Source of the DNA: an uncultured bacterium
Lineage (GTDB): Bacteria > Acidobacteriota > Thermoanaerobaculia > Thermoanaerobaculales > Thermoanaerobaculaceae
Length of the DNA: 64,000 nucleotides
Assembly: GCA_937924755.1 (NCBI GenBank)
Contig: CALEVZ010000031.1
Location: 62,001-126,000 of the forward strand
Direction: 5' to 3'
Part shown: in pieces, positions 19,725-28,332 of the stretch
How the letters are laid out: the number at the start of each line of letters is the position of its first letter
Numbering within the stretch: position 1 is the first letter of the stretch
Notes under the pieces: model-generated
The model's input: the letters and a program-made list of their open reading frames with translations, nothing else
Database searches by the model: none
What the model was told of the DNA's origin: nothing
Position numbers and translations under genes: made by a program

Positions 19725-20297
19725 ATGGTCCCGATGATCGTCGCGGCGATGGTGTTGACCCTGAGTACCCCTGCGCAGCCGACCAAGGGAGCTCCGCGGG
19801 TGCGCCTGGAGACCTCCAAAGGGATCATCGTGGTGGAGCTGGAGGCGGAGAAGGCGCCCAAAACGGTGGCCAATTTCCTTCATTACGTGCGCACCGGCTT
19901 TTACAACGGAACGATCTTCCACCGGGTCATCCCCACCTTCATGATCCAGGGCGGCGGCATGACCGCCGATTTGATGCGCAAGCCCACCAACCCGCCGGTG
20001 GTCAACGAGGCCGCCAACGGCTTGAAGAATCTGCGGGGCACGGTGGCCATGGCGCGCACCGCCGAGGTGGACTCGGCGACATCGCAGTTCTTCATCAACC
20101 TCAAGGACAATCCACACCTGGATCACCGCGGCCCGACGCCGAGGGAGTTCGGCTACTGCGTCTTCGGTCGGGTGGTGGAGGGCATGGAGGTGGTGGACGC
20201 CATTGCCGCCATCCCCACCGCGGCGCAGGGGCCGTTCCCTGCGGATGTGCCCACGGAGACAGTGACCATCCTCAAGGCGGTATTACTGGCGCCCTGA
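19725..20297 (+). CDS. secreted cyclophilin-type peptidyl-prolyl isomerase
   Basis: About 190 residues with a signal peptide (MVPMIVAAMVLTLSTPAQP) and a cyclophilin domain: GIIVVELEAEKAPKTVANF, FHRVIPTFMIQGG with the catalytic Arg, and SQFFINL. It assists protein folding, probably in the periplasm. AGGAGG at 19711-19716 serves either ATG 19725 (8-base spacer) or the GTG just before it. The last 26 bases overlap the convergent secreted-protein gene. Confidence 0.93.
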   Translation: MVPMIVAAMVLTLSTPAQPTKGAPRVRLETSKGIIVVELEAEKAPKTVANFLHYVRTGFYNGTIFHRVIPTFMIQGGGMTADLMRKPTNPPVVNEAANGLKNLRGTVAMARTAEVDSATSQFFINLKDNPHLDHRGPTPREFGYCVFGRVVEGMEVVDAIAAIPTAAQGPFPADVPTETVTILKAVLLAP

Positions 20298-21552
20298 GTG
20301 GGGGGCGGGGCGAGGTCGCTGCCGGGGCGACGGGCCAGCGTACTCGCAGCTCCAGTGTGGAGCCGCCGGCCACCCACACCAGCGGGGGGCCGTCCGCCTC
20401 CTCACCGTCAAGGGCAATCAGGCGCGGCACTGCTCGCTGCAGGACCCGCTCCAGGGCTCGCCGGCCCGCCACGGTCCGCCCGCGGATCACCCAGGCGAGG
20501 GCCCAGCGGCCGGGATCGGCGGTGTTTTCCACGAGCTTAAGACGGTCCCCATCCCATTCCCGGGCGAGCCGAGCGGCTTCTTCTTTGGGCAGCGTCTGGC
20601 CAAGCCAGAACTGCAGCGCCCACTCCCCCACTGTGTCGGTGAGCACCTCGGCCCAGCCCGCCGGGGTGACGGGCAGCTGCTCGTCGCCCATTGGCCGTGG
20701 CCGGCGCCGGGGGTCGCGCAGCGCCGCCGTGGACTCCGGGGGTGAGGCCAGCAGGCGGTCCACGGCCGCCCAGCCGCCGGCGCGGTAGGCGTCCAGCACT
20801 GTCTGCAGCCCCCGGGTGTAGGGAAACAGCAGATCCGCCACAAAAAACTCGGGAACCCCCGCAGCCGCCGGAATCGGCACGCCGGTGCCGCTGGCCATGC
20901 GCTGCGCCGCCGCCAAGGCCGCCGGTTCTTCGCCGGGGGGGACGCTGAGCAGGAGCATCACCAACATGGCGTCTCCCTCGGCGATGGCCGAGGCGGCCCG
21001 CTGCCGATCGCTGTTGGAACGCACAGCCAGCAGGCGGCTGGGCAGGGAAAAACGCTTCTCCTGGGCCGCGTGGGCGAGCTCGTGGGCCCACAGGAGGGAG
21101 GCCTGGGCGTCTCGTGCCGCCGGCGTGTCCACCAGCACCATCTCATCGGTGAACGGCTCATAAAAGCCGAGGACCTGGCCGGTGTAGAAATCCAAAAGAC
21201 GCCCGTACATGACTTGCGGATCGCCAGTGGCGAAGCCCAGCCGCACCAGGACCTGGAGGTACTTCTCCGGCGGCAGGGGCAGGTCCCGCCGCAGCTTGCG
21301 ATCCAGTTCGGCGCGCAGCATCGTCGGCGAGATCATCCGGCAAGCGGGGGACAAGCCGCCGGGCACGGCTCGCAGCTGGGCGACGGCCCGGGCGGTGTCC
21401 ACCAGGGCAGCGGGGCAGGGGGTGCCGCCGGCGGCGGGCCAAGCGCCGGCCACCAGGGCTGCGGCGAGGCACCATGCCGCCCGGACCAGGACCCGCCGGC
21501 CACCGTCCCTCCCCCGGGGCGCTGAGTGCGTCCTGCTATACTGCGTCGACAT
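20272..21552 (-). CDS. secreted HExxH (gluzincin-like) putative metallopeptidase, unknown family
   Basis: About 426 residues with an N-terminal hydrophobic stretch (AAWCLAAALVAGAWPAAG) that looks like a signal peptide. A zinc-peptidase motif HELAHAAQ is present near residue 187, with EGDA about 35 residues on as a possible third ligand, and GFYEPFTDEMVLVD before it. I do not recognise the family; it resembles proteins annotated only as hypothetical. The 5' end is uncertain. ATG 21552 lies within the start of the divergent RsbW-like gene (shared CATG), whereas TATAGC at 21535-21540 on this strand would place the start inside, with no standard codon there. Confidence 0.65.
   Translation of the reverse strand: MSTQYSRTHSAPRGRDGGRRVLVRAAWCLAAALVAGAWPAAGGTPCPAALVDTARAVAQLRAVPGGLSPACRMISPTMLRAELDRKLRRDLPLPPEKYLQVLVRLGFATGDPQVMYGRLLDFYTGQVLGFYEPFTDEMVLVDTPAARDAQASLLWAHELAHAAQEKRFSLPSRLLAVRSNSDRQRAASAIAEGDAMLVMLLLSVPPGEEPAALAAAQRMASGTGVPIPAAAGVPEFFVADLLFPYTRGLQTVLDAYRAGGWAAVDRLLASPPESTAALRDPRRRPRPMGDEQLPVTPAGWAEVLTDTVGEWALQFWLGQTLPKEEAARLAREWDGDRLKLVENTADPGRWALAWVIRGRTVAGRRALERVLQRAVPRLIALDGEEADGPPLVWVAGGSTLELRVRWPVAPAATSPRPPLRAPVIPP
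21537..21542 (+). promoter_or_regulatory. -10 element TATACT for leaderless RsbW-like gene
   Basis: TATACT lies 8 bases before ATG 21551; no Shine-Dalgarno sequence is present. Confidence 0.55.
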
Positions 21553-22003
21553 GGTGCGGCAGGCCCAAATGCAGCTGTTGTCGTCGTTCGAGAATATCGA
21601 GATCGCCGATGGCATGCTGCAGGAGCTGTGTTCCACCGCCGGCGTGGAGGAAGAGACCACCTACTGGGTAGGCATGGCCCTGCGGGAAGCTCTGGCAAAC
21701 GCCATCAAGCACGGAAACAAGCTTAACCCGGAAAAGCGGGTCCACGTCCTGGTACGGGTCGATCCCGGCCGTGAGCTGTGTATCGAGGTGGAAGACGAAG
21801 GCGAGGGGTTCGCCCCGGCGGATGTCGTCGATCCCACCAGCCCGGAGAACCTGTTGCGCGACAGCGGGCGGGGGATCTTCTACATTCGCCATTTCATGGA
21901 CACCGTCCATTTCTCCCCCGGCGAGCGGGGGGGAACGCGGGTCGAGCTGATCAAGCGGTTGGACAAGGCGGGACAAGGAGGCTTTGATGAAGAGCGCGAT
22001 TAG
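21551..22003 (+). CDS. RsbW/SpoIIAB-type anti-sigma factor kinase-like ATPase
   Basis: A 150-residue GHKL ATPase domain protein of the anti-sigma kinase type. It shows the N box MALREALANAIKHGN near 38 (Glu-Asn), the G1 box VEDEGEGFAP near 82 and the G2 box SGRGIFYIR near 112. Such proteins phosphorylate STAS antagonists and bind sigma factors. The STAS gene follows and overlaps it, so they form a partner-switch pair. The sigma factor target is not in the window. It is probably leaderless. Confidence 0.9.
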   Translation: MVRQAQMQLLSSFENIEIADGMLQELCSTAGVEEETTYWVGMALREALANAIKHGNKLNPEKRVHVLVRVDPGRELCIEVEDEGEGFAPADVVDPTSPENLLRDSGRGIFYIRHFMDTVHFSPGERGGTRVELIKRLDKAGQGGFDEERD

Positions 22004-22328: not shown

Positions 22329-23208
22329 CAGCAGCCTGGCAGCGGCGCTTGCCCGACTGGCGGGAAAGGTCGAGCAGCGGCTGGACGCCTTGATGGCCTG
22401 CGATAGGCAGGATCCCTTGGCGCTGGCGATGCAGCAGGCGGTCTGTGGCGGTGGCAAGCGAATGCGCCCGGTGTTCGTGCTGCTCGTCCACGAGGTCCTG
22501 GGGCGGACCGGACGCCAGCCGGTGGACGTGGCCTGCGCGGTGGAGATGATTCACGCCGCCTCGCTGGTGCTGGATGACCTGCCGTGCATGGACGACGCGG
22601 CGATCCGGCGGGGGCGGCCGACACTGCACCGCGTTTGGGGGGAAGCCACGGCCATCCTGGCAGCCTTCGCGCTGCTGGCCCGCGCCGGCGAGGTGCTGCG
22701 CTCTGGACTGGTGGCGGCGGGAGTGGCCCCGGCCCACCGCGACGCGCTCACCGCTCGCCTGGCCCAGGTAGTGGAGACGCTCTGCCGCGGTCAGCTGCTC
22801 GATTTGGGCCTGGTCGAACAGAGCTGCGATCTCGACCGGCTAGAGGCGGTCCACGCCCAGAAAACCGGGGCGCTGTTCGCCTTTGCCGCCGAGCTGGGGG
22901 CCGCCTGCGCCGGCGTCTGGGGCGAAGAGCGCGAGGCGCTGCTGGCCTATGCTCGCAACCTGGGGTTGGCGTTTCAGGTGAAGGATGATCTTCTGGATGT
23001 CACGGCTTCCCAGCAGCAGACCGGCAAGGCTCAAGGCCGGGACGCCGCCCTGGGGCGCACCACCTTTGTCAGCGTCTTCGGGGTGGAGGGGGCACAGGCG
23101 TTGTGCGATGAGCTCATTGCCACCGCCCGGGACGCCATCGCCCCGCTGGGGGGAGCGGTGGCGCTACTGACGGAATTCGCCGACTATGTCCGAACCCGCG
23201 CGGCCTAG
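22294..23208 (+). CDS. ispA: polyprenyl diphosphate synthase (FPP/GGPP type)
   Basis: A 304-residue trans-isoprenyl diphosphate synthase. It has the first Asp-rich motif DDLPCMDD near 89-96, GGGKRMRP near 50 for diphosphate binding, and the second Asp-rich motif KDDLLD near 230. It makes C15 or C20 diphosphate from IPP and DMAPP. Product length cannot be read reliably. The ATG at 22294 overlaps the STAS gene by 35 bases and has no Shine-Dalgarno site. No dxs or xseB is adjacent, unlike in many bacteria. Confidence 0.9.
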   Translation: MRARPSPVSTPDSSLAAALARLAGKVEQRLDALMACDRQDPLALAMQQAVCGGGKRMRPVFVLLVHEVLGRTGRQPVDVACAVEMIHAASLVLDDLPCMDDAAIRRGRPTLHRVWGEATAILAAFALLARAGEVLRSGLVAAGVAPAHRDALTARLAQVVETLCRGQLLDLGLVEQSCDLDRLEAVHAQKTGALFAFAAELGAACAGVWGEEREALLAYARNLGLAFQVKDDLLDVTASQQQTGKAQGRDAALGRTTFVSVFGVEGAQALCDELIATARDAIAPLGGAVALLTEFADYVRTRAA

Positions 23209-24874
23209 CGCGGATCTGCTCTCGGCGCGCCGACAGCTGGAGCGCAAGGGCTATCTCCGGGGGGGGCTGCCTCCCTCGCCGCCCGGACCGTGGCGGCGGG
23301 CCGTCGACGGGGCGCTGTGGTGGGCGGCCGCCACGGCGACCTTGGTGGGTGGAGTGCTGGCCGGCAGCGGCGCCAGCTGGTCCGATGTCGCTGCGTTGGC
23401 GCTGGCTGTGGCTCCGGTGGTCGGGTTGGCGATACTCGCCGCCGCCGGGGCGGGTCGGCGGCTGGCGGCCTGGTGGGTGGGCTGGGGGGGCTCGCCCCAG
23501 GGGGTGGCGGCGGCCCTCGGTGGGGTGGCGGTGCTGGCGGCCGCGCTGGGTTTGGGTGCCGGCGTGTGGTTCGGTGAAATCGCTTCTGATCACGTCAGAC
23601 TGCTGGCGGGACTCAATGGGATCATCTGCGCCGGTATCGCCGGGCTGGCGGCGCGGCGGGGTTTGCAACGCGCGCTGGGTGTCACGGCTGCGAGCGTCAG
23701 CTCAGTCCGCACCCGCAGCTGCGAAGTGATCGCTCTGCTCGCCGTGAGCGCCGCAGGAACCGGGCTGGCCATGGCGCCGCCGGTTCGACCTTCCCTCTTC
23801 CCGACTCCCGCGGGGTTTGCTGCCCCTCCCGCCAGCGGCCGCGTCGCCGTGGTCGGCGTGGACGGTCTGGGCCGGGGGGACCTCGAAGCGCTGGCGACGC
23901 TTTTTCCCGGCGAAGGATGGGAGCAGGTCGCCGGGTGGGGCTGGGTCGAGGTGGAGGGGGTGGCGGCCCCGCTGGCGGCGGTGACCTGGACGTCCATCGC
24001 GTGCGGAGCCCCACCGCGTCAACACGGCGTGTCGGTCCTGGAGGAGGTGCAGCTGTTTGGCCGTTCTTCAGGGGTGGGACTGCCGGCCCTGCTGCGGGGG
24101 CCGGTGGTTGCCTTGTGGTCGCCCTTGTCGCTGGCCAGGGTGGTGGCTCGCCCGGCTCTCGACCGGCGTCTGCCCACCCTTTGGGAAATGGCCTCGCGGG
24201 CGGGGTGTCCGGTGCTGGTGGGGGGGTGGTGGGGGAGCTGGCCGGTGCGACAGGTGCTGGGCGAGGTAGTGAGCGAACGGGCCTGGCTGGGCGGGGCCAC
24301 CGGTGTCGACGCGGTGACCCCGGCGCTGGCCGAGGTGGTGCAGGCGGCCTGGGAGCGAGGGCGGCAGGCGCCGGCGGCTACCGATCTGCTGGCCGCCGAG
24401 CTGGTGCGGCGCGCGGTGGCTGCGCAGGGTCCTGCTCTGGTCGTGCTGTGGCTGCCGGGCCTGGATCTTTCGGCGCGGTTGCCGGGGGACACCGGCCCGC
24501 TGGCGGTGGCCGCCCGGCTGCATCCCCACCTGCAGGTGCTGCGCGGGCTGCTGGAGCGGCTGGCGGAGGCCGGGTACACCCTCTGGCTGGTGGCGCGGCC
24601 ACTGGGTTCGGGGGCCCCCTTTGCCGCTTCGGCTTCGGTCAGTGACCGCGGGCGGCGCCGCGCCAGCAGCGCTGATCTGGTGGCCACGTGGCTGAACCAG
24701 CTCGGGTTGCCGCCTCCCGTCGGAGGCACGCCGCTGTCGTGCAATCAGGGCGGCGAAGGCGAGACGCTGAAAACGGCGGACTATGGCCCGCCACCGCCGC
24801 CGGTGGAGCGCCCCTCGGTTGCCAGTGCCACGGTGCAGCGCGAGGTGCTCAGAAACCTTGGCTATCTTCGTTAG
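23186..24874 (+). CDS. membrane-anchored alkaline-phosphatase-superfamily protein, probably degenerate
   Basis: A 562-residue protein. Residues 40-200 hold about four membrane helices. Residues 218-470 resemble the phosphodiesterase/nucleotide pyrophosphatase branch of the alkaline phosphatase superfamily: metal Asp D226 in VVGVDGLGRGD, nucleophile Thr269 in VTWTSIACG, then RQHGV. The later metal sites are not found. The expected D..H pair appears as LDLSARL, and the expected DHG site as VARPLGSG. It may therefore bind without catalysing. The start overlaps ispA by 23 bases. The C-terminus is Pro-rich, then ends REVLRNLGYLR, a tail seen in related family members. Confidence 0.7.
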   Translation: MSEPARPSADLLSARRQLERKGYLRGGLPPSPPGPWRRAVDGALWWAAATATLVGGVLAGSGASWSDVAALALAVAPVVGLAILAAAGAGRRLAAWWVGWGGSPQGVAAALGGVAVLAAALGLGAGVWFGEIASDHVRLLAGLNGIICAGIAGLAARRGLQRALGVTAASVSSVRTRSCEVIALLAVSAAGTGLAMAPPVRPSLFPTPAGFAAPPASGRVAVVGVDGLGRGDLEALATLFPGEGWEQVAGWGWVEVEGVAAPLAAVTWTSIACGAPPRQHGVSVLEEVQLFGRSSGVGLPALLRGPVVALWSPLSLARVVARPALDRRLPTLWEMASRAGCPVLVGGWWGSWPVRQVLGEVVSERAWLGGATGVDAVTPALAEVVQAAWERGRQAPAATDLLAAELVRRAVAAQGPALVVLWLPGLDLSARLPGDTGPLAVAARLHPHLQVLRGLLERLAEAGYTLWLVARPLGSGAPFAASASVSDRGRRRASSADLVATWLNQLGLPPPVGGTPLSCNQGGEGETLKTADYGPPPPPVERPSVASATVQREVLRNLGYLR

Positions 24875-24890: not shown

Positions 24891-25277
24891 GTGGAGTGTC
24901 AGATGCGTGTTCTGGTAGCCGACGACAGCCGGGTGTTTCGGGCGCTGGTGGCGGAAATCCTGCGCGAGCGAGGTCACGATGTGCTCGAGGCGGGTAACGG
25001 TCGAGAGGCGCTGGAGATGGCATTGGCAGCGCGGCCTGCCCTGCTGGTTCTGGACGCTCTCATGCCGCTGCTGTCGGGGTTCGACGTACTCGCCAAGCTT
25101 CGGGAGAAGCTCCCCACCTATCGTCCTAAAGTCTTCATGGTGACCGCGGTGTACAAGAGCCGGCGGTGGGAGTCGGAAGCGCGCAACCAATTTGAAGTAG
25201 AGGAGTATATGGAAAAGCCGCTGGAACCGCAGACGCTCCTCGCCGCGCTGGAAAAACACTTCCCCGAGTCGACCTAG
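24891..25277 (+). CDS. single-domain response regulator receiver protein
   Basis: A 128-residue stand-alone receiver. It has the acidic pair in VADDSR (residues 9-14), phospho-acceptor D55 in LLVLDALMP, Thr in MVTAVY and Lys in YMEKPLEP. There is no output domain, so it acts through protein contact or phosphotransfer. No histidine kinase is adjacent. GTG 24891 is chosen because it follows TACAAT by six bases; ATG four codons later is the alternative. Confidence 0.93.
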   Translation: MECQMRVLVADDSRVFRALVAEILRERGHDVLEAGNGREALEMALAARPALLVLDALMPLLSGFDVLAKLREKLPTYRPKVFMVTAVYKSRRWESEARNQFEVEEYMEKPLEPQTLLAALEKHFPEST

Positions 25278-25292: not shown

Positions 25293-25307
25293 CCTGAGAC
25301 CCTCAGG
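25293..25307. terminator. possible bidirectional terminator hairpin between convergent genes
   Basis: CCTGAG, loop ACC, CTCAGG forms a perfect 6-bp stem between the receiver gene and the convergent aminotransferase-like gene. It overlaps the latter's stop codon. No long T-run follows on either strand, so the call is weak. Confidence 0.3.
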
Positions 25308-26559
25308 CCTCGTCTTCCCGCTGCATCTTTTTCAGCGCCCCCTCGATGGTGCTCAGGGCCTGCTCGATGTCCTTCACGCCGTGGGCGTGGGAGAGGAAGC
25401 AGGCCTGCGGGGAGCGCGCCGGCAGCAGCACCCCCGCCTCGCGCACGGAACGCACGAGGCGGCTCCAGGAGTCCTGGTCGACGCGGGCGAAGCTGCCGCC
25501 GTCGGTCACCCGCTGACGGGCGAAGGCGAGGGAGAAGATCGACCCCACGCGGTTGCAGCGCAACGGGCGCGAGAAGCGCTCGGCCAGCGCCTCGATGCCG
25601 TTGGCCAGCTGCGCGCCGCGCTCCTCGAGGCGCTGGTGAACGGCGTCGTTGCGCAGCACCGAGAGGGTCGCCAGGGCGGCGACCAAGGCCAGGGGCGGCG
25701 GTGGTGGCGGCAGATCGTCGGGGGGCAGCGCGCCCAGGGACCTGTGCCAGGCCACCGCGCCCATGGGTGACACGCCTCCACCGAGGGCACCCCCGTAGAC
25801 GCACACATCGGGCTGCAGGCCGAACACCTCGGCAGCCCCGCCACGGGCGAGGCGCAGCCCGGAGACCGTTTCGTCCAGCACCAACCGCGCGCCCGCAGCC
25901 CTGCAGCCGTCGACTACCGACTGCAGGAACTGCGGCGACGGGGGGATGACGCCGTACTGCAGGGCCAGGGGGTCCAGGATGACAGCGGCGGTGTCCACGC
26001 CCACCTCGGTCAACACGGCGGCGAAGGTGTCCCCATCGCCCCAGGGCACCACCCGGACCAGGCGAGCCAGCTCCGCCGGCGCGCCCGCCACCAGGGACTG
26101 GGAGATGCCCAGCGGTCCGGTGGCCACCACGTTGAAGGCCTCCAGCGCCCCACGGCGGTTGCCGTCGAAGACGATGACGCGCTGGCGGCCGGTGTCGCGC
26201 CGGCACCAACGCAACGCCAGCTCCCAGGCCTCGGTCTCGGACGAGGTCAGAACCCAGGGTGCCAGCGACGGGATGATCTCGCCCAGTTCCTCGGCGAGTT
26301 CCACCTCCGCGGCAACGTGGAGGCCGGTGACCAGTCCCAGCCCGGCGGCGCGCCGGACGGCGTCCAGCACGTACTGGTTGGCGTACCCTAAAAGGTTGCC
26401 GCCGTCACCGCCGACCAGGTCGAGGAAGGCGACGTTGTCGGCATCGAAGACGCGGCATCCCGAGGCCTTGGCAAGCAGGAGAGTCTCCTCCCCTCGGCGT
26501 GCCGCCAGCGGCAGCCGTCGCCGGGCCTGCGCAAGGATCTCTTCACCGCGCTGTCCCAC
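25303..26559 (-). CDS. class III aminotransferase homologue lacking the PLP lysine (glutamate-1-semialdehyde aminomutase-like)
   Basis: A 418-residue fold type I protein closest by motif order to glutamate-1-semialdehyde aminomutase. The cofactor-contacting LDETVSGLR (D229) is kept. The Schiff-base site that reads GKxxGGGxPxGA in active enzymes here reads GGALGGGVSPMGA, with Gly257 in place of Lys. The phosphate-loop Thr region (GTxxGNP) is replaced by a run of prolines near 290. Catalysis by the usual mechanism is therefore unlikely. The frame is intact and codon use is like its neighbours, so it looks like a kept gene, not decay. A GTG start after TACAAT (26589-26594) and GGGAGG is assumed. 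Confidence 0.8.
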   Translation of the reverse strand: MGQRGEEILAQARRRLPLAARRGEETLLLAKASGCRVFDADNVAFLDLVGGDGGNLLGYANQYVLDAVRRAAGLGLVTGLHVAAEVELAEELGEIIPSLAPWVLTSSETEAWELALRWCRRDTGRQRVIVFDGNRRGALEAFNVVATGPLGISQSLVAGAPAELARLVRVVPWGDGDTFAAVLTEVGVDTAAVILDPLALQYGVIPPSPQFLQSVVDGCRAAGARLVLDETVSGLRLARGGAAEVFGLQPDVCVYGGALGGGVSPMGAVAWHRSLGALPPDDLPPPPPPLALVAALATLSVLRNDAVHQRLEERGAQLANGIEALAERFSRPLRCNRVGSIFSLAFARQRVTDGGSFARVDQDSWSRLVRSVREAGVLLPARSPQACFLSHAHGVKDIEQALSTIEGALKKMQREDEA

Positions 26560-26612: not shown

Positions 26613-26819
26613 TCAACCCTCGCCGTCGTTGTCCTCTTCCTCGTCGAGTTCGCCGTGGAAGAAGTGCTCACCGCAGCGGGCGGAACAGAACAGACGCCCG
26701 TACGCCTGATAAGCGCAGCGGTGGCATATGCTTGTCGCGCACATCGGGCAGGTGGTCATCGCCCACCCGGCCACCTCGCGCCCGCACCGTGGGCAGACCA
26801 GGGCTTTCGGGTTCAGCAT
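26613..26819 (-). CDS. small multi-cysteine zinc-ribbon protein
   Basis: A 68-residue protein with four cysteine pairs: C9/C12, C24/C27, C32/C35 and C45/C49, enough for two zinc sites. A histidine-containing stretch and an acidic tail (DEEEDNDGEG) follow. No family name can be given; zinc binding is inferred from spacing. ATG 26819 is preferred to the overlapping GTG because CATACT (26826-26831, minus strand) lies exactly six bases before it. It lies between the aminotransferase-like gene and the divergent tRNA gene. Confidence 0.7.
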   Translation of the reverse strand: MLNPKALVCPRCGREVAGWAMTTCPMCATSICHRCAYQAYGRLFCSARCGEHFFHGELDEEEDNDGEG

Positions 26820-26901
26820 CACAGCAGTATGGTCTCTGGCGCCACCGGGCGCAAGCGCCCTGGCCGGATGCGGGTGACTTTCCAGAGGGCATCGCAGAGT
26901 C

Positions 26902-26907: not shown

Positions 26908-26923
26908 ACCCCCTGCCTGGGGT

Positions 26924-26995
26924 GCCGGCGTAGCTCAGAGGCAGAGCAGGGGTCTCATAAGCCCCGTGTCGGTGGTTCGAGTCCACCCGCCGGCA
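26924..26995 (+). tRNA. tRNA with anticodon CAU (Met elongator or Ile2)
   Basis: A complete 72-nt cloverleaf. Acceptor GCCGGCG/CGCCGGC, D stem GCTC/GAGC with a 7-base loop, anticodon stem GGGGT/GCCCC with loop CTCATAA, variable loop GTGTC, T stem GGTGG/CCACC with TTCGAGT, discriminator A at 26995. CCA is not encoded. G1-C72 pairing excludes the usual initiator, which lacks a 1-72 pair. CAU elongators are either Met or, after TilS modification, Ile (AUA). The T arm looks like common Met elongators, but acceptor pairs 4-69 and 5-68 match neither textbook set. The discriminator is also the A of the tilS ATG. Confidence 0.93.
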
Positions 26996-28332
26996 TGACC
27001 ACGATGACACCGTCTCGCTTTGCGGTCGACTTCCGAGCCCGCTTCCCGGATCTGCAGGGCTCGCGAGCGTTGGTAGCTCTTTCCGGCGGAGCAGATTCGG
27101 TGGCCCTGCTCCTTCTCCTTCACCACGCCGCGCCCGAGCTGTCACTCTCCCTTCGTGCCGCCCACGTCCATCACCACCTGCGCGGCGAGGAGGCCGACGA
27201 GGATGCCCGGTGGTGTACGCGGTTGTGTGAGGAACTTAAGATTCCCTTCGAGGTGCTGCACCTCGGCGAGCCGATGCCGCCTCGCGGGGTGTCGCCGGAG
27301 TCGTGGTGGCGGCGAGAGCGCTACCGTCTGCTCGCCGCCGAGGCGGCTCGAGCAGGCTGCGCCGCGGTACTCACCGCCCATACCCTGGACGATCAGGCCG
27401 AAACCGTGCTGCTCAAACTCCTCACCGGAGCGGGACCGCGGGGGGTGGCCGGCATTCGGCCCCGTGCGGGTGTGGTGGTCCGGCCGCTGCTGGAGGTGCG
27501 CCGGGCCGAACTGCGGGCATTTCTGGCGGCTGCCGGCAGGGCCTGGCGGGAGGACGCCACCAACCAGGATACCCGGCGGCCGCGCGCCTGGGTTCGGCAC
27601 CGGCTGTTACCCCTGCTGGAGGCGCGCTTTCCCCGCGCCAGCGAGCACCTCTCCGGGCTGGCCGGGGATGTGGCACGGGACGAGGAGCTGCTGGGGGAGC
27701 TGCTCGGCCGCCAGGCGCCGTGGCTACAGCCGGGTGAGAGCGTTCCATCAACGCAGCTTCGCCAGCTGCCGGAAGCCTTGCTGGCGCGCTGGACACTGCA
27801 GATCGCCAGCGGTTTGCCGTTGCGGGAGCCACCCTCCAGGAGGCAACTGAAGCTGGTGGCAGCGATGATTCACGGCGGCAGACCGGCGGCGGTGGACCTG
27901 GGGCGCCGTTGGGTGCTGCGTCGCCACGGCGACCGGGTCTCGCTGCTGCCGCCTCCCTGCCCGCCGTTCGAGTCCCAACCGGCCGGCGGTCGGGTAACCT
28001 TGCCCGGTGGGTGGCGGGCGACGCTGGGCGAGGCGCCGGAGCCGCAGGCCACCTACCGGGTGTGGTTGGACCCACGGATTCTTGCCGCCTCTCCGGTGTG
28101 GCGCTCCCTCCGCAAGGGCGAGGGGTGGCAGGAGGCAGGATGCAAAAGTCTGGCGCGGCGGCTGGCGGCGGCCGGGGTGCCGGGGCCGTGGCGGGCTGCG
28201 TGGCCAGTTCTGGAGGCGGGTGGTAGGATTGTTTGGGTTCCCGCGGTGGGGGTGGCGGTGGCGTGGGCAGGGACGGGGGAGGCGGGAGTCGCGGCAACGC
28301 TGGAGGAGCCATGGCAACGCCGGTGGAAATAG
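26995..28332 (+). CDS. tilS: tRNA(Ile)-lysidine synthase
   Basis: A 445-residue N-type ATP pyrophosphatase that converts C34 of tRNA-Ile(CAU) to lysidine so that it reads AUA. The P-loop SGGADSV is at 30-36, HVHHHLRGEEADEDA near 56, and HTLDDQAETVLLKLLTG near 125, with GVAGIRP and R/D loops of the catalytic core. The C-terminal substrate-binding domain follows. ATG 26995 begins on the last base of the tRNA(CAU) gene; ATG 27004 is the alternative. The end overlaps hpt by 22 bases. Confidence 0.93.
   Translation: MTTMTPSRFAVDFRARFPDLQGSRALVALSGGADSVALLLLLHHAAPELSLSLRAAHVHHHLRGEEADEDARWCTRLCEELKIPFEVLHLGEPMPPRGVSPESWWRRERYRLLAAEAARAGCAAVLTAHTLDDQAETVLLKLLTGAGPRGVAGIRPRAGVVVRPLLEVRRAELRAFLAAAGRAWREDATNQDTRRPRAWVRHRLLPLLEARFPRASEHLSGLAGDVARDEELLGELLGRQAPWLQPGESVPSTQLRQLPEALLARWTLQIASGLPLREPPSRRQLKLVAAMIHGGRPAAVDLGRRWVLRRHGDRVSLLPPPCPPFESQPAGGRVTLPGGWRATLGEAPEPQATYRVWLDPRILAASPVWRSLRKGEGWQEAGCKSLARRLAAAGVPGPWRAAWPVLEAGGRIVWVPAVGVAVAWAGTGEAGVAATLEEPWQRRWK

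Follow-up and report, generated by a model that had tools for sequence, protein, structure and literature searches.

The gene at 25303-26559 of the window (the whole 64,000-nucleotide stretch of DNA that was analysed) encodes a homologue of HemL (glutamate-1-semialdehyde 2,1-aminomutase), hereafter called pseudo-HemL, which has no lysine at the PLP-binding position and is kept by purifying selection. Our preferred reading, in which we place moderate confidence, is that pseudo-HemL is a HemL-derived pseudoenzyme that serves as a non-catalytic binding or scaffold protein together with a small, putatively zinc-binding protein, outside tetrapyrrole synthesis.

A HemL-like protein with a predicted aminotransferase fold

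The gene and its altered sites are the following:

25303..26559, minus strand: pseudo-HemL gene, 418 aa, GTG start; Pfam Aminotran_3, 113 bits
25693..25710, minus strand: proline run P284-P289, replacing GTLSGNP of HemL (partner-subunit phosphate loop); from the alignment
25789..25791, minus strand: Gly257 codon (GGT), at the Schiff-base lysine position; from the alignment
25870..25875, minus strand: cofactor-ring Asp motif (Asp229-Glu230), retained; both residues invariant across 30 aligned orthologues
26227..26244, minus strand: SSETEA (residues 106-111) in place of the phosphate loop NSGTEA, with the Gly of SGT lost

The initial annotation had described a full-length class III aminotransferase homologue, and both points hold. 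The minus-strand frame is intact and stop-free over its 418 codons, the plus-strand translation is broken by stops, and most orthologues start with MGQR. Pfam places the protein in aminotransferase class III. Its nearest NCBI models are those of HemL, at 214-226 bits and below curated cut-offs of 398-527; the HemL equivalog cut-off is missed with 213.9 vs 527.3 bits. HemLs are also the closest relatives of known structure. Structure prediction, a check proposed with that annotation, gave the same answer: an AlphaFold2 model built with the family alignment (pTM 0.82, mean pLDDT 79; poor, with pLDDT < 50, at residues 1-3, 25-62 and 75-80) has HemL crystal structures as its top Foldseek matches, at a TM of about 0.8. 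As judged from this model, pseudo-HemL retains the fold-type-I aminotransferase scaffold.

Loss of the HemL active site

The PLP lysine had been reported as replaced by glycine in a Schiff-base motif that reads VYGGALGGGVSPMGA. The alignment agrees: Gly257 (Gly256-Gly257 being encoded by GGG GGT, with Gly257 at 25791-25789) stands against K265 of E. coli HemL. All 47 HemLs compared (members of the order itself, of further families in the class, and outgroups) have K at this site, and none of the 30 orthologues does; the latter, the window included, carry G (20), A (6), S (3) or R (1). Conservation of the site is therefore confirmed as non-Lys (30/30) and not as glycine itself (20/30 only). Since G, A, S or R occupies the position in 30 orthologues vs K in 47 HemLs, the loss is both ancient and permanent, with the replacing residue free to vary. 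The same 30 orthologues rule out a single-genome mutation or an assembly error. A shifted lysine taking over the role is likewise excluded in the window protein, which has four lysines in all (31, 396, 410 and 411) and none between 32 and 395, so that no substitute is possible; residues 60-330 are lysine-free in this protein and in the orthologues L002 and L003.

Two further claims, of a proline run in place of the GTxxGNP phosphate loop and of a retained cofactor motif LDETVSGLR, are also correct: P284-P289 stands where HemL has GTLSGNP, and the motif is present with D229-E230 in it. Our alignment indicates that the loss of the active site had been understated. In E. coli numbering, the Tyr142-His143 ring-stacking pair, Ser155, Asn209 and Glu399 are gone, as are the SGT phosphate cup, the partner-subunit Thr297 and the GTLSGNP loop, and the N-terminal substrate segment with Ser21 and Arg24 is missing altogether. 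Overall, 37 of the 102 near-invariant HemL columns are retained. Active-site columns, which we named from what is established about the HemL structure, are lost more often (13 out of 14) than other near-invariant columns (52 out of 88; Fisher P-value 0.016, to be read as indicative because the 14 were picked by hand). Their sole survivor is Asp237, which is D229 in the window protein.

Orthologues and selection

Two families of Thermoanaerobaculales (Acidobacteriota) contain orthologues: f1, which includes Thermoanaerobaculaceae and Thermoanaerobaculum, with 59-71% identity to the window protein, and f2, with 38-45%. All pseudo-HemLs form one clade in the tree (support 100). Our profile matched 34 genomes of the order, and the match in G027 is its true HemL, which leaves 33 carriers out of 37 genomes. 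Two non-carriers are incomplete genomes (G016, 74%; G035, 66%), and G027 (88% complete) also lacks the eight-cysteine gene described below, so a missing contig is possible. G026 (94% complete) shows a clean loss; its locus (L206) lacks pseudo-HemL between the eight-cysteine gene and hflX, which makes it a natural empty site. In the carrier G009 the frame is broken, on a low-coverage contig; this may be a sequencing error.

The profile search covered 149 genomes of the class and 396 of the phylum and detected no further pseudo-HemL. The next-best scores outside the order (265-356 bits) belong to HemLs, and those aligned carry Lys; the order's own true HemLs score approximately 220-246 bits with the same profile. 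A scan of a genome collection with two short patterns, which could miss distant forms, returned acidobacterial records only, all consistent with Thermoanaerobaculales, and no viral carriers were found. Matches on plasmids, with 28-31% identity, were either HemLs or unannotated HemL-like stretches and were rejected as members.

In the 14 closest pairs of orthologues dN/dS is 0.05-0.15 (Nei-Gojobori); some dS values are near saturation, but for the pair with the least divergence (dS 0.22) the ratio is 0.11. Pseudo-HemL is under purifying selection. The proposal of a conserved inactive family member is thus upheld by a loss common to two families, by this selection and by the lack of any substitute lysine.

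An older neighbour encoding a putative zinc protein

Around pseudo-HemL lie the following features:

24891..25277, plus strand: convergent gene of a single-domain response regulator, present in f1 only; from Pfam and locus comparison
26613..26822, minus strand: gene of a small eight-cysteine protein (putative two-zinc), 68-69 aa, directly upstream with a 53 nt gap
26923..26996, plus strand: tRNA with CAU anticodon, between the two-gene unit and tilS; ARAGORN tRNA-Met
26995..28332, plus strand: tilS, divergent neighbour, conserved in f1 and f2; from locus comparison

The eight-cysteine gene lies upstream on the same strand, with all eight cysteines kept, in each of the 29 testable pseudo-HemL loci, and f1 loci have 50-53 nt between the two genes, f2 loci 3-30 nt. 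The pair is probably co-transcribed, as far as gene order can tell. The upstream gene has a dN/dS of 0.03-0.21 in four close pairs. Its cysteines follow the pattern C-x2-C ... C-x2-C ... C-x2-C ... FC-x3-C, before an acidic tail, and its predicted fold is small and beta-rich with one C-terminal helix. Four ordered cysteine pairs and a fold of this kind are also found in small zinc proteins of the YacG, FYVE and RING types, and we infer that the protein may bind zinc. Unlike these, it exceeds the cut-off of no Pfam or NCBIfam model; searches of PDB returned no convincing sequence match and no fold match with E under 0.001.

Matches to the eight-cysteine gene are present in 74 of the 149 genomes of the class, usually divergent from tilS, and because of this wide occurrence we take the gene as older than pseudo-HemL. 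It is found without pseudo-HemL across the class and stays in G026 after the loss there. In family f7 hemB comes next after it, and in one genome, of family f4 (L053), the order is eight-cysteine gene, hemB and a Lys-bearing hemL. Because relatives have the eight-cysteine gene followed by hemB and once by hemB-hemL, the hemL part of this synteny coming from L053 only, pseudo-HemL is probably derived from a copy of hemL formerly located behind the eight-cysteine gene. The tree joins pseudo-HemL to the HemL group of f7, f9 and f4 at 90% support but is also compatible with the other group (AU P-value 0.54), and does not by itself decide between them. Synteny suggests that the old copy would have been made redundant by the HemL of a separate hem operon.

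Gene order and a possible link to translation

Divergent tilS-hpt-ftsH flank pseudo-HemL in both families. TilS acts on tRNA-Ile2(CAU), and the CAU-anticodon tRNA that precedes tilS could be its substrate. On the other side, most f1 loci have the convergent response regulator with a STAS gene next. In f2 the same strand runs from pseudo-HemL into hflX and the gene of an FmdB-type zinc ribbon protein in every locus that reaches that far, and in 11 of the 15 loci 0-35 nt separate the pseudo-HemL stop from the first possible start of hflX. HflX is a ribosome-splitting GTPase. Elsewhere in the window, 23186-24874 (plus strand) encodes a 562-aa protein without Pfam match, and 20272-21660 (minus strand) is a 462-aa ORF whose only match, to the putative metallopeptidase family DUF6782, is weak and stays below cut-off.

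In the mechanism that we propose, pseudo-HemL keeps the scaffold, is without the substrate residues and the phosphate cup, and no longer binds PLP covalently. It would be made from a two-gene unit with the upstream zinc-ribbon-like protein and, probably as a dimer, would bind or scaffold either this protein or a target common to both. A translation- or stress-related process seems the most plausible setting, if weakly so, because hflX and the FmdB gene extend the f2 unit and tilS lies divergently beside the locus. That a HemL-fold ligand sensor or scaffold and its two-zinc partner control such a process, with a link to HflX in one family, as a module not described before, is a tentative extension of this reading. 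A more specific form, overlapping with the preferred reading, makes pseudo-HemL a ribosome- or translation-linked factor that works with HflX and zinc ribbon proteins. The f2 gene order, the divergent tilS of both families and prfA near pseudo-HemL in one locus (L045) point to it. However, in f1 hflX has another place in the genome, no hflX was detected in G003 although this genome carries pseudo-HemL, and tilS, hpt and ftsH are a common housekeeping cluster, so that proximity to them is weak evidence; we consider this form rather doubtful.

Possible residual ligand binding

Of the roles that the initial annotation had offered, a sugar-binding protein finds no support, since pseudo-HemL resembles HemL and not the DegT kind of sugar aminotransferase, and an enzyme of new mechanism is unlikely, with nearly all cofactor and substrate residues gone. 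The third, a regulator, fared better: regulators and binding proteins form the most plausible class, although carriers without heme genes contradict a role in regulating heme synthesis. Either catalysis by a new mechanism or non-covalent binding of PLP, PMP or another ligand, as in a sensor, could use a pocket around Asp229-Glu230. Both residues are invariant in the 30 orthologues and might form a remaining ligand site, and G256, G262, R236 and H393 are common to pseudo-HemL and HemL. Nevertheless, the phosphate-loop, ring-stacking, Asn209 and substrate positions are lost and differ between f1 and f2, and the Asp and Glu may be retained for structure, which leaves this alternative improbable.

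Occurrence without heme synthesis genes

HemL is a dimer in which both subunits form the active sites, and a true HemL exists in many genomes of the order. Together with the position of the eight-cysteine gene next to hemB or hemB-hemL in relatives, this could suggest that pseudo-HemL is a regulatory or structural subunit of true HemL or HemA. Yet in the window genome the true HemL lies elsewhere, adjoining HemB (G000:C13) in a separate hem operon, and at least five near-complete genomes keep pseudo-HemL with no HemL over cut-off and no HemA, HemB or HemC detected (G005, G007, G010, G013 and G015; 98, 96, 91, 91 and 94% complete, respectively). The gene is still under selection there, because dN/dS is 0.055 for G007 and G015 (L002/L003) and 0.089 for G010 and G013 (L005/L006). 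Since these five genomes have pseudo-HemL without the four heme genes, they contradict a partnership with HemL, and pseudo-HemL is unlikely in general to serve heme synthesis or to be a subunit of HemL; we give the subunit little credence. HemA, HemB, HemC and true HemL were undetected in seven f1 genomes (G005, G007, G008, G010, G013, G014 and G015), and several f1 members have apparently lost tetrapyrrole synthesis.

That pseudo-HemL is a decaying relic without function, as its loss in G026, the frame break in G009 and the missing catalytic residues could hint, is very improbable given its low dN/dS (0.05-0.15), its presence in 33 of 37 genomes and frames that remain intact over a deep split (38-45% identity between families).

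Comparison with known proteins and implications

Pseudo-HemL has the fold and length of HemL (PDB 5i92, 6w80, 2gsa), approximately 30-38% identity to it, and shares with it the DE-xxGFR motif and the GGG after the lysine position. Unlike HemL, it lacks the Schiff-base Lys, intact phosphate loops and the Tyr-His stacking pair, has its N-terminal NSPVR segment deleted, lies outside the hem operon and far under HemL cut-offs, and occurs without HemA, HemB and HemC (five genomes, 91-98% complete). With residues lost, selection maintained and the fold kept in the prediction, it belongs to the known class of pseudoenzymes, here of PLP fold type I. The nearest PLP-fold precedent is LCB1/SPTLC1 of serine palmitoyltransferase, a fold-type-I paralogue without the PLP lysine that is paired with LCB2 (PMC3794620). 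Both proteins lack this lysine and are kept by selection, and LCB1 is the precedent that favours a subunit role (PMC3794620). However, LCB1 pairs with a catalytic paralogue, whereas G005, G007, G010, G013 and G015 have no HemL over cut-off to pair with. We found no description of the pseudo-HemL family and its eight-cysteine partner in the open-access literature that we searched.

Sequence-based annotation is likely to name pseudo-HemL an aminotransferase or HemL, and would then report a false heme-pathway step in genomes without true HemL. The family cleanly illustrates how a metabolic enzyme can lose catalysis and outlive its pathway, and it offers a comparison between species with the heme pathway and species without it, all of them with pseudo-HemL. 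It also points to a conserved and unannotated gene of a putative zinc protein adjoining tilS.
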